A DNA stretch of 64,000 nucleotides from Isoetes taiwanensis (taxonomy: Eukaryota; Streptophyta; Lycopodiopsida; Isoetales; Isoetaceae). The translations under genes were made by a program, and so were the position numbers. Numbering within the stretch: the stretch's first letter is position 1; the number at the start of each line of letters is the position of its first letter. Positions 3,835 to 8,038 of the stretch are shown in pieces. Under the pieces are notes generated by a model that had not been told where the DNA came from, ran no database searches, and was given only the letters and a program-made list of their open reading frames with translations. The stretch spans positions 1,550,001 through 1,614,000 of the forward strand of contig JAJEKV010000054.1 in NCBI GenBank assembly GCA_021234155.1, in the 5' to 3' direction.

Positions 3835-3982
3835 GAATTGGGAAGCGCCAGGATCAAGGAAGCAGCTAACCCTTTGTTCATTGTCCAGCAGAATACAAAT
3901 AGACGAGTTCCTTGAAGTTAGGAACAACTACTAAATGATTACAGTAAAATCTCATCAGTCATCTTTTTGTCATGTTCCAACA
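3835..3982 (-). repeat. 3' LTR of gene-capturing element (end truncated)
   Basis: Matches 7871-8038 with three transitions. It lacks 20 nt present in the 5' LTR (between ATC microhomologies near 3951). In element sense the terminal TCTCGTTCCACA seen in the other LTR is not found; homology stops at 3835 and the sequence beyond is unrelated. Confidence 0.85.
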
Positions 3983-3991
3983 CTCCCCCTC
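3983..3991 (-). promoter_or_regulatory. Polypurine tract of gene-capturing element
   Basis: Reads GAGGGGGAG on the minus strand and directly abuts the TGTTGG start of the 3' LTR, as expected for the plus-strand priming site. Similar ACTCCCCCT blocks recur on the plus strand at about 4204-4212 and 4235-4244. Confidence 0.8.
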
Positions 3992-4764
3992 AAGAAGATG
4001 ACTACTGGCCTCAAGAAAATAACTATTACAAGAAGCTGAAACACAAAACTAAACTTTTTGAATTTGCCCACCGAATTTTGGAGATTTTCTATGAAAGGAC
4101 TTTGTGAGGCACTCCCCTAAACGAACTTCACTTCTATGTCTGCCTACATAAATGTTGAACAGGTTCTTTGAGAAAGCATGATGCACCAAGCTTAGTTTAT
4201 ACCAACTCTCCCCCTGCATCATGAAAGAACTCAAGCACTCCCCCTCAGCCAATTCAAATTGAACTTCCCCTTGCATAATTTTGCATAATGAAGCAGAAAA
4301 AGTCTGTCATGCAGCCACCATGAGCATGAAGAAAATAAACTGTGGCACTTTCCCTTGCTTCATGAAGGAGAACTTCTGTTTATCATGAGTTTTCCAATGC
4401 GCATGCCAATTCCTAAGTGGTTTCAACCAAATTGCTTCAATGTGCTGCCCCAAATGCAGTTATGTGCTGCTCCATTTTCTAGTTACCATACTTTCAACTT
4501 TAAAGATTGCCATCACGGTTAACATACCTTGTTGGTTTCGCTCAGCATTAGATACACCTCTCACAATCTTAAGCCTACGGTCAAGGATCCTCTCTCCTCT
4601 ACTTCATGATGCATGATACTGCTGTCTACTTGGCGACTTGTTGTCTTGACTTAGCATATAGGACTCATGTTGCCATTTTCTCCCCCTTGCATCCTGAAGT
4701 ATAACACGAACGACATCTTCACCTACTTGCGTTCTTCTGGACTGTAAAAGCCAGTATTATGTTT

Positions 4765-5260
4765 CCAACGTCCTTTGCTACAATCATTATGAGCTCTGCA
4801 ATGTGCCTCAATCTCTTTTGCTACTTTCTTGACCTGCTGCTAACACTTCCTGGTAGCTTCATCTTTCTTAGCAAGTTTTTGTTCTTCTATAAGCCTGATT
4901 TTTCGCATTCTTTGAACAAGACTAGTTCGAAACTCAATCAAGTATGTATTGGCCTCTGTGTCACCTTCCTTGCTTGAAAGTATTGCTCTTTGTCGGATCG
5001 TAAGTTCTGTTTTCTCTTTGATATTCTGCAAATCTTGCATGCTGCCTTTTTGGGTCGCTTGCTCATCTTTTGAACTAACTTCATCATCATCTTGAGCTGT
5101 AATGAAGTCTTCCTCTGAAGTGCTCTCATCAGTTTTGAAGGAATCTTGGTCATCAGACTTGTGCCTTTTCCTAGCTTTCTTCACTTCTTCAATGTCGTCA
5201 TGGTCATCCCCATCAAGATCATCATCAAAAACTTGTCTCTTAATTACCCCAGAGCTTTTC
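4765..5260 (-). pseudogene. Captured INO80 complex subunit B (PAPA-1)-like fragment
   Basis: In the same frame that follows the phosphoglucomutase fragment, a lysine- and acid-rich segment begins near [19 protein letters not shown] and leads to [15 protein letters not shown], then LIEF, then [15 protein letters not shown] with a stop at 4840. After this stop the frame continues QQVKKVAKEIEA. This order (T-x-RQRA-x-LSS, LIEF, then a KKxEAxRxxQQxxKxAKE helix) is that of the PAPA-1-like region of INO80 chromatin-remodelling subunit B. The family's usual C-terminal zf-HIT domain is not seen. The piece is a fragment with at least one in-frame stop, part of the retroelement body, and not expected to make a working subunit. 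The identification rests on motif order by eye. Confidence 0.6.
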
Positions 5261-5321
5261 CTGATAGCTTGCCCAGCAGAAGAAGTTGGCACTGGTGATG
5301 CAGAACTAGCCTTCATCTCTA

Positions 5322-5833
5322 CATTTGTTTTTGTTAATTCTAATGAAAGATTCAAAAGCTTCCGTGCCTTTTGGGCATCAGGGTTATGCTTTGACTTATC
5401 AGGCTCATGCTCATACTCATGCTCATACTGCTCTACATATAGCCTTATGGTTGCACCAGAAGAACCAATACCAGAAAGATGAAAAATAAGCCATGAGCCA
5501 TCACCAAAACCAAGCTGAATTCTTTGCTTCGAGGCCACACTTCCATCTACTGGATTAACATATTCAAAATCATCTGCACAGCTAAGAGTATATGTGACCA
5601 TGTTGATCACTAGGCTTAGATGTAGATATCAGATCGCGCAGGTGCTCAGCCATAGCATTGACCTTTGATGAATCACATTCCTCATAGTCATAGCATGAGA
5701 AAAAATTCCGCCCATATATGGCCCAATGTTCCTTTGCAATGTCTTCTACAGACACAAGCTTCTCCCCAGCTTCCTTCCATGGTTTCTTTCAGCAAGAATG
5801 GACAACCATGCCAGCACAGCCCAGATACCATCT
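5322..5833 (-). pseudogene. Captured phosphoglucomutase C-terminal fragment, intronless
   Basis: Reading the minus strand from 5833: [17 protein letters not shown], then after a frameshift (about 5770) [20 protein letters not shown] and [14 protein letters not shown], then after a second shift near 5608 [38 protein letters not shown] and IRLYVEQYE. These match, in order, the C-terminal third of plant alpha-D-phosphoglucomutase (glucose-1-phosphate to glucose-6-phosphate interconversion). The family's RLSGTGS phosphate-binding loop is altered to HLSGIGS. About 170 residues are contiguous with no intron, although plant phosphoglucomutase genes are intron-rich, so capture through RNA is the simplest explanation. 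Two frameshifts and the loop changes make it non-functional. Upstream of DGIW the homology ends abruptly (capture junction). Confidence 0.85.
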
Positions 5834-6717
5834 TCCAGAAATTTTGCACGAGCACTTTTGCCAGAAACATCCACAATCTTCTTACATGCTTCAACATTTA
5901 CTACATCCATTCCAGTACTCAATTCTTTTTCTTCCTCAAAAATTATTGGCTCCTGTATTCCCTGCTCAATCTTTGGAACATCAATTTCATCATCATTAAA
6001 GTCTCCCTGAAGAATGAGTCTATGGCATCTTCTAGCAGGTAGTTGATCTACAGGGACATTCTTTTTACCAACATGCCAGTTTTGCAAGCCTTTTCCTCCT
6101 TTCGCTGGACTTCTTTCCATTTCTTCTTGATTAAAATCTTCAATTGAATCTCTAATGTGACGGTTTTGCAAGCCTTTTCCTCCTTTCTCTGGACTTCTTT
6201 CCATTTCTTCTTCATTAAGTTCTTCAATTGAATCTCTTGCATTAACAAGTGTCCCAAATTTGCCATCTTGTCTAGAACTTCTCTGCTGCAAATCAACCTT
6301 GTTGCTAGAAAGCTCTTCCTCAGAATCTAAGAAATCCCTCCTATAATTCCAACCCACAACAGGTCTACCCTTCTCCGCTGCATTGCTTTTTCCATCAATA
6401 ATCTCTGCAAAGCTTTTCTCCTTCAAGGGTGGATTATCTTTCACAGAACACCTGCCTTCCCTTCTCTTAAAACCGTTCTGAAATCTAGGTTCAGCATTGG
6501 CCTCTACTTTTCTTTCAGGAGGAAAAACATTATCAAATTCATCACTAACCTTAGAATGAGGATGCCAGCCCTTCACATTAGTTTGATTCCTGACCAATCC
6601 TCTTCTTTCATTTGATGAAGTAATCCTCTTTGCACTACTTGCATTACTAGAATTGCCTTCAGTGCTCCTCCTCATGGCAGTGTTCCCATTAGAAGTTTCA
6701 GCATCTATGTCTTTGCC
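5834..6717 (-). pseudogene. Charged low-complexity ORF segment with 28-aa tandem duplication
   Basis: This is the middle of a 407-codon frame (6969-5746) joining the transporter fragment to the phosphoglucomutase fragment. It is hydrophilic and probably disordered, rich in Asn, Arg, Glu and Ser. It contains an 84-bp tandem duplication (about 6075-6158 and 6159-6242) giving RDSIEELNEEEMERSPEKGG and RDSIEDFNQEEMERSPAKGG. No family is recognised; it may be further captured coding sequence. The frame stays open for about 290 codons, which suggests real protein-coding ancestry. Confidence 0.4.
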
Positions 6718-7062: not shown

Positions 7063-7132
7063 ACATCTTGGCCTTCCTCCATAGCACTAGCTCCAGAGTC
7101 TGCATAGTTTGGAGCCGAATTCATCCATGGTG

Positions 7133-7750
7133 CTAAATGCTCTGGATCAGAATGAGGCTACGAGTACCCTCCAACCTTGGCCTTCTTGCAGCTTCAGACC
7201 TTGGCCTCCAGATTTGCTTTGCAAAATCCATCAACATTGATTGAGGTTCTCTTGTTAGAGCCATCACTGATATCTTTGCTTTAAGATCTTCTGATCTCAC
7301 ATCATCCCATAGATCACATAGATCCCTGTTGGGCTCGTTCACTGGCATTGCACTCTTGCAGGCTCGCGATCCACTACCAAAATCCATCAGCAACCTCTGT
7401 GGTTCGCTTGCTACTACCAGGTTCATCACTATGTCTTGGTTGGTTCCCATAGCCTGCCTTGCTACAAGCATCTTGAACCACCATGCCATATCCTCGGTGT
7501 CTCCTTGTGAGCACTCAATGCTCCACATCATGCACCTAAAAATGACATATCTCATCTTTGGCCATACGACCTCTCTTTTCAGCATCATAACCAAGTTTCT
7601 AGCAGCCTCTTTGAAGCTTGGTAAGCCCATCACAAGCCAGATCCTGTTAATGACACTGAATCTTTTCACCTCTTTTGCTTGGTGTAGCACATCCATGCCC
7701 ATGTAGCATAAGAGACTCACCAAGACATGCCAGAAATCCATTCTCGACAC
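7133..7750 (-). CDS. Unidentified 205-aa ORF near the 5' LTR of the gene-capturing element
   Basis: This open frame lies about 100 bp downstream of the primer-binding site, where gag usually begins, so it may be the first translated frame of the element's RNA. It is rich in Met, Trp, Arg and Leu. It contains two similar segments, VVASEPQRLLMDFG and VMALTREPQSMLMDFAK, about 55 residues apart, suggesting an old internal duplication. No zinc knuckle, capsid motif or known domain is recognised. It could be a decayed gag, captured host sequence or a chance frame. Confidence 0.3.
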   Translation of the reverse strand: MSRMDFWHVLVSLLCYMGMDVLHQAKEVKRFSVINRIWLVMGLPSFKEAARNLVMMLKREVVWPKMRYVIFRCMMWSIECSQGDTEDMAWWFKMLVARQAMGTNQDIVMNLVVASEPQRLLMDFGSGSRACKSAMPVNEPNRDLCDLWDDVRSEDLKAKISVMALTREPQSMLMDFAKQIWRPRSEAARRPRLEGTRSLILIQSI

Positions 7751-7838
7751 GTTTTACGTTCCCAGATTGGATCCGTCATGAATCTACTCTCCCCTTATTC
7801 TTCAAACACACAAGAGCTCTTAGGCCTATTCCCTGGAA

Positions 7839-7857
7839 CCAACCTGCTCTGATACCA
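7839..7857 (-). promoter_or_regulatory. Primer-binding site (initiator tRNA-Met type)
   Basis: The minus strand reads TGGTATCAGAGCAGGTTGG, 3 nt from the 5' LTR end at 7861. The first 12 nt match the classical plant initiator-Met tRNA primer-binding site. Confidence 0.85.
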
Positions 7858-7860
7858 TAT

Positions 7861-8038
7861 TGTGGAACGAGAATTGGGAAGCACCAGGATCAAGGAAGCA
7901 GCTAACTCTTTGTTCATTGTCCAGCAGAATACAAACAGACGAGTTCCTTGAAGTTAGGAACAACTACTAAATGATTACAGTAAAATCTCATCTACTTTTA
8001 ACGGCTACTATCAGTCATCTTTTTGTCATGTTCCAACA
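7861..8038 (-). repeat. 5' LTR of gene-capturing element
   Basis: A complete 178-bp LTR, TGTTGGAACATG...TTCCACA on the minus strand. It holds a 20-nt block (about 8002-8021 on this strand) absent from the partner LTR. It is separated from the copia element by only 43 bp. Confidence 0.85.

Follow-up and report, generated by a model that had tools for sequence, protein, structure and literature searches.

The 64,000-nucleotide stretch of Isoetes taiwanensis DNA analysed here (the window: contig JAJEKV010000054.1, positions 1,550,001 to 1,614,000) carries, at 3835-8038 on the minus strand, a damaged copy of a non-autonomous long terminal repeat (LTR) retrotransposon of about 4 kb. A preliminary description had proposed a chimeric LTR retroelement carrying fragments of three or more unrelated host genes, and this is borne out by intron-bearing parent genes, by empty insertion sites and by further copies in the genome. 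It had also called the LTR pair intact, which is not the case: the 5′ LTR (7858-8038, 181 bp) runs from TGTTGGAAC to CACAATA, but the 3′ LTR (3835-3982, 148 bp) is without 20 internal bases and the last 13 bases. The two show 3 mismatches over 148 aligned bases. The other signals described, a primer binding site and a polypurine tract, are both present. The former, TGGTATCAGAGC, occupies the 12 bases directly behind the 5′ LTR (7857-7846) and is presumably of the initiator tRNA-Met type; the latter, TTGAGGGGGAG (3983-3993), precedes the 3′ LTR and includes AGGGGGAG at 3990-3983, abutting the repeat. A target site duplication (TSD) was looked for at the window copy and none was found, the 3′ LTR ending short at 3835. 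Here and below, the search of the host genome covered 1,658,258,908 bases in 1110 contigs, and its match lists are lower bounds. Duplications of 5 bp flank 9 of the 11 copies tested (L009, L011, L012, L015, L016, L017, L018, L052 and L053, with two options for their placement in L011 and L017) and were not found in L013 and L014. The TSD-bearing relatives set the true LTR end at CAATA and establish that the repeats are the element ends. An open frame at 3621-3834, adjoining the truncated 3′ LTR and having no Pfam match, may belong to a gene or element joined to it by the truncation.

The body was said to lack any retroviral enzyme, and Pfam detected no gag or pol domain either in the open reading frames (ORFs) of the window copy or in those of seven other loci. 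Just 43 bp away and on the same strand lies a Ty1/copia element (8082-13034), with 236-bp LTRs that are 99.6% identical, a CCCAT TSD, gag, Pol_BBD and RVT_2 domains and the same 12-base primer binding site (12798-12787). When the gag and pol sequences of this neighbour were compared by tblastn with the collected loci, matches were obtained only in L005 (which is that neighbour), L019, L037, L048 and L050 and, judged by their positions, they fall outside the element parts.

All parts of the body lie on the minus strand, with the captured pieces in element sense. A leader (7231-7845), which begins the long ORF and is common to many related elements, is followed by a first segment of INO80B (PAPA-1) cDNA (7107-7230; 92% to the C974 gene, L047), an ABC-transporter membrane insert (ABC_membrane_2; 6724-7106, limits within about 3 bases), a middle INO80B segment (5843-6723) spanning one parental intron position and including an 84-base tandem duplication (6074-6237), an insert from the C-terminal part of plastid phosphoglucomutase (PGM; 5353-5842) and a last INO80B segment (4811-5352), which extends into the PAPA-1 region and has a stop at 4842 within the homology. 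The ABC and PGM pieces are in-frame inserts within one captured INO80B cDNA, because the parent gene is continuous across both pairs of flanks. The ABC site is likewise uninterrupted in L016, L021, L050 and L051 as well as in the parent L047, and the PGM site in L016, L050, L051, L052, L054, L055 and again L047 (L050 and L051 are on one contig and look alike). The INO80B frame is kept at both ends of each insert; AAC is found at both edges of the ABC insert and two to three A's at both edges of the PGM insert, which small indels break internally in the window copy. Beyond the last segment comes a 3′ non-coding part (3994-4810), codon signal being absent in 4839-3996. It contains extra AGGGGGAG motifs at 4208, 4238 and 4680, possible secondary polypurine tracts.

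Two open runs in the same frame remain in the window copy: one of 415 codons (5746-6993), from the ABC piece through INO80B to the start of PGM, and one of 262 codons (4840-5628), from the PGM C-terminus into INO80B, where its TAG falls inside the homology. With the 206-codon leader ORF they make up the three longest sense ORFs; a third longest of at least 206 codons arose in none of 2000 dinucleotide shuffles, and a longest of at least that length in one. The preliminary description was right in placing PGM and INO80B in one chimeric frame. That frame is, however, longer (947 codons in the relative L011, with the matches to all three parents in its frame), and two of the pieces sit within the third instead of adjoining it; the INO80B part is not confined to 5331-4840 but extends from about 7230 to about 4811. 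Two other assignments were abandoned. The middle part (6708-5839) was considered as a separate fourth captured gene until comparison with the C974 locus identified it as INO80B, and the leader ORF, considered as gag or as captured coding sequence, had neither a Pfam nor a PDB match and no codon signal in its frame (z -0.5). A single-sequence structure model of the leader ORF was of no use (mean predicted local distance difference test score, pLDDT, 39.5).

Only the PGM piece could be recognized directly by translated search. Among 1716 candidate proteins, 81 had E≤1e-3, these being phosphoglucomutases by their Pfam domains, with plant plastid forms among the first, and the Pfam PGM C-terminal domain matched with E 2.1e-20, as expected from the C-terminus originally described. 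The parent lies at C1078:9179560-9180760 (L056; alike stretch on C1030), where five stretches are 78-98% identical to the window copy. They are separated by introns that the element lacks, and a fifth intron, located where the piece begins, is absent too. The captured part begins at residue 435 of 612 and hence, by the domain order that we assume, is without catalytic domain I; since it is longer at this end in L009 and L012, part of its start was lost in the window copy. Eight of 36 near-invariant sites are changed in the window copy, whereas the 78 homologs have a mean of 0.18 such changes and never more than 4. On visual inspection L011 shares several of the changes, and, as a raw count, six of the eight are C-to-T.

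The identities of the other two pieces were settled through the parent genes, because direct protein searches found neither: the 415-codon ORF gave nothing at E≤1e-3 among 3334 candidates, and the ABC and INO80B pieces nothing at E≤10 among 1146. Nor did a PDB search give anything useful for INO80B, ABC, the middle part or the ABC parent exons. The ABC piece itself has no codon signal (z -0.2) and matches ABC_membrane_2 with 20 bits (E 4.8e-4), below the 24.4-bit cut-off, while none of eight shuffled versions match. Its parent at C1097:3596700-3598300 (L057) has two exons that are 88% and 85% identical to it and at least one intron, between them, which is missing in the element. Taken alone, these two exons reach only 0.002 for ABC_membrane_2, with BrkB close behind at 0.0032, but another two stretches, which lie downstream in profile order and share the strand, score 30.5 and 30.3 bits, above the cut-off. 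The transporter segment proposed earlier is thereby confirmed through the exons of the parent. The contig of the ABC parent also has a phosphoglucomutase-like match (C1097:3619040-3619703), about 22 kb away from that gene and in the same orientation.

For INO80B, the parent at C974:15859500-15869400 (L047) matches window positions 7230-7107, 6723-6006, 6008-5843, 5352-4908 and 4896-4811. Two gaps in it, read as introns (L047 5017/5301 and 5927/6052), are absent from the element. The spliced parental exons give PAPA-1 with E 1.1e-8; in the element copies themselves Pfam did not find this domain. A plant PAPA-1 peptide, used for comparison and recognized by Pfam, scored 110 against the INO80B stretch, while none of 5000 shuffles scored above 77. 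Eight matches to the INO80B-derived bases of the family cluster on C1045 at about 22.06-23.0 Mb, perhaps a segmental duplication array. All three parents are thus present in the host genome, and the pieces in the element are RNA-derived, the parental introns of all three genes being absent. In L011, nucleotide identity to the parents is 87.6% over 1432 bases for INO80B, 87.7% over 293 for ABC and 92.4% over 474 for PGM.

The element belongs to a family with varying content. A search with the LTR yielded 40 scored matches out of 108 candidates (a lower bound), and one with the leader at least 50 matches to 7233-7700 from the 40 scored of 66 candidates; blastp showed the N-terminus of the leader to be common to the relatives. 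The chimeric body is nearly whole at four further loci (L009, L010/L011, L012 and L013) and partial in L048. L010 and L011 are 99.2% alike, flanks included, and are therefore counted as one locus. L011 keeps the 947-codon ORF, which is broken into shorter runs in its near-twin, possibly through a sequencing or haplotype difference. Stretches alike on different contigs (L010/L011, C1078/C1030 and C1097/C157) are perhaps haplotigs or recent duplications, and copy counts in the assembly may be inflated by such pairs. Other relatives share the LTR and leader and differ in the body. A PA domain is found in L014 (1053 codons, 3.7e-7) and L015 (1049 codons, 2.6e-7), the subtilase piece of L015 matching PDB 7eox with E 2.4e-40, and an IP5P-type propeller in L016 (1156 codons, 5.4e-9) and L053 (1024 codons, 1.5e-6). 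In L017 (C1055:4796000-4801300) the 763-codon ORF has only the leader in common with the others and its cargo was not identified by Pfam search; a second, overlapping frame there has repeats like GAYRAMKGYAASGYGAA. UNC93-like and 2-oxoglutarate (2OG)-oxygenase-like pieces had been suspected in L016 and L015, but Pfam gave no confirmation and they are not claimed. The LTR pairs are identical in L014, L016, L017 and L018, and 99.0% identical in L015, 98.3% in L012, 97.9% in L053, 97.8% in L009, 96.8% in L052, 85.8% in L055 and 80.3% in L013. A contig-end stretch (L049, C571:1-3000), 70% identical to window 6116-7832, is perhaps an old relative.

An ORF of at least 763 codons (range 763-1156) is present in 6 of the 13 translated loci, L010 and L011 being counted apart here, while it is broken in L009, L010, L012, L013, L018, L052 and L055. 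Three hundred shuffles of each of five loci with a long ORF gave maxima of 147-178 codons only. The ratio of nonsynonymous to synonymous changes (dN/dS) was calculated between intact ORFs by the Nei-Gojobori method, codons with local identity below 65% being dropped, and compared with neutral simulations in which only stops were forbidden (200 runs per pair). For L014/L015 (1004 of 1009 codons kept) dN/dS was 0.643 against a simulated 0.759, with 68 of 200 runs at or below the observed value and an average of 3.4 nonsense changes rejected. The more diverged pairs gave 0.672 against 0.807 for L014/L016 (636 of 948 codons, 23 runs, 12.1 nonsense changes), 0.629 against 0.841 for L015/L016 (631 of 944, 6 runs, 11.6), 0.742 against 0.763 for L016/L053 (684 of 978, 94 runs, 14.4) and 0.525 against 0.828 for L014/L053 (404 of 877, 1 run, 12.2). 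Without the filter, the four pairs other than L014/L053 had ratios of 0.675, 0.687, 0.627 and 0.681. A further pair, L011/L014 (dN/dS 0.420, dS 2.23), was left out because most of its alignment is non-homologous. None of the ORFs compared holds a stop. In four of the five pairs the two copies are separated by 232-331 base differences across 404-684 kept codons, a divergence at which about 12-14 nonsense changes would be expected. Between L014 and L015 the nucleotide alignment has gaps of 1, 1, 9, 35, 4, 12, 21, 15, 99, 9 and 10 bases; 6 of these 11 are divisible by three, and the two single-base gaps offset each other, as do those of 35 and 4. We read these comparisons as pointing to strong selection against stops, the residues themselves being constrained weakly or not at all; some constraint at the protein level is possible, given the two pairs that fall clearly below the simulation.

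Taken together, the observations are read as serial capture of spliced mRNA combined with selection for an open frame. We consider it rather likely that the family collects pieces of spliced host mRNA in the course of copying in trans and template switching, and that it persists by way of the open frame. A Ty1/copia-type element would package the RNA and copy it in trans; a host mRNA packaged alongside would be captured when the reverse transcriptase jumps onto it and then returns; and a lineage would last only while the frame from leader to cargo stays open. At this point we may only guess at the cause. Translation along most of the RNA could shield it, for instance from nonsense-mediated decay, or could serve packaging, rather than answer a need for a specific protein. 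The furthest-reaching version, which we put forward tentatively and hold to be somewhat less likely than not, is that this enzyme-less lineage may survive by one very long open frame of nearly irrelevant content, host mRNA pieces lengthening or renewing the frame, which in turn would shield the RNA or make it eligible for packaging.

Several points weigh against these proposals. In two of the five pairs (6 and 1 of 200 runs) dN/dS is clearly under the simulation; the pairs share branches and so are not independent, and for each pair the kappa estimate draws on 8 to 24 differences at four-fold sites. The intact copies were picked for their long ORFs, and 7 of the 13 translated loci, together with the window copy, are broken, including the near-twin of L011. 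With the neighbouring Copia element the family shares the primer binding site but not the LTR sequence, and no pol was found in the family copies examined. Finally, the return to the exact INO80B base after each insert fits break repair with a cDNA filler as well.

This last point leads to one of three alternatives, each of which we regard as unlikely to a similar degree. Plants fill DNA breaks with foreign DNA, and fragments of host cDNA could have filled double-strand breaks in a genomic copy of the element that was mobile later. The inserts do interrupt INO80B without loss of bases and with just 2-3 bases repeated at the edges, but filling of this kind requires chance insertion in frame at both ends, twice, and both inserts are moreover in element sense; we find it improbable as the source of the nested structure. 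Another possibility is that the long ORF encodes a protein needed by the element or the host and is kept open by purifying selection. The two low pairs favour such a need, and maize Bs1 is reported in a review to be transcribed and translated (PMC13317346). Against it stand the dN/dS values of 0.53-0.74 and the variation of cargo between subfamilies. So does the PGM piece, with its presumed lack of catalytic domain I and its altered near-invariant sites in the window copy, and we give this explanation little credence. The family could also stem from a one-off transduction of the Bs1 kind, slightly amplified and under no special selection, the frames being open simply because the intact copies are young. 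Identical LTR pairs in several intact copies and the broken frames at 7 of the 13 translated loci would suit it. The stop-free divergence in four of the five pairs, and relatives holding other cargo in equally long frames, make it doubtful. Much weaker is the proposal that a host INO80B-ABC-PGM fusion gene arose first by exon shuffling and was captured once as mRNA: the in-frame junctions would fit, but among the genome matches listed, which are lower bounds, the three queries co-occur only where the LTR or leader is also present, the intron-bearing loci (C974, C1078/C1030 and C1097/C157) carry one gene each, and relatives with the INO80B capture but without the inserts speak against it, so that we hold it to be very improbable.

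Elsewhere in the window, 28311-35382 is bounded by terminal repeats of about 380 bp that are 94% identical and contains an integrase (rve) domain, and is probably Ty3/gypsy-like. A 665-codon open frame with pentatricopeptide (PPR) repeats and an E motif occupies 14383-16380, and at 2004-3219 there are GC-rich repeats, about 50-130 bases long, in which GATCC is frequent.

Helitrons and Pack-MULEs also capture genes, but their captures keep introns and have neither LTRs nor 5-bp TSDs; the present element is without parental introns and has both LTRs and 5-bp TSDs, and does not belong with them. To our knowledge, there are very few known cases in which a single LTR element has taken up more than one host gene. 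The maize element Bs1, reportedly the subject of studies by Elrouby and Bureau in 2001 and 2010, was named in the preliminary description as the precedent. Three features of a Bs1-like element were found here: at least two unrelated host genes, intronless pieces and a fused ORF (947 codons in L011). Bs1 is indeed a precedent for several genes in one element according to a review (PMC13317346), and the present family differs from what is described there in its genes, in the plant division, in the nesting of inserts in one captured cDNA, in its subfamilies of differing cargo and in ORFs of up to 1156 codons. It is not the sole precedent, however: in the relevant section of PMC4717578, two terminal-repeat retrotransposons in miniature (TRIMs), soybean GmaRetroS15 and one further, carry exons of more than two genes. 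They resemble our element as non-autonomous LTR elements with intronless pieces of three host genes, and gene-bearing TRIMs mostly have at least two copies and 5-bp TSDs (same section). The two differ from our element in their size of 1.2-1.4 kb and in including a 5′UTR piece, and that section does not describe a long fused ORF. At about 4.2 kb, against a TRIM average of 685 bp (PMC4717578), the element is not itself a TRIM. A maize survey of 425 intact LTR retrotransposons with gene fragments saw, under its conditions, no single element that combined two or more standard nuclear genes (PMC2774510); those elements resemble ours in holding host gene fragments and differ from it in the number of genes per element. 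For rice and sorghum, 672 and 1343 cases of host genes in full-length LTR elements were tallied per gene, and chained multi-gene ORFs are not described in the corresponding passages (PMC3726574). No such family is told of in the titles or abstract beginnings of the openly licensed literature that was searched.

What the family offers is a set of stages within one genome: leader with INO80B, the same with two more genes nested inside, or other cargo. Parents, empty sites and intact ORFs being available together, the order of capture, the switch points and the cause of frame conservation become testable, and the family bears on the origin of new multi-domain genes. If the frame is indeed kept open with indifference to its content, the lineage would keep producing new fusion proteins with several domains.

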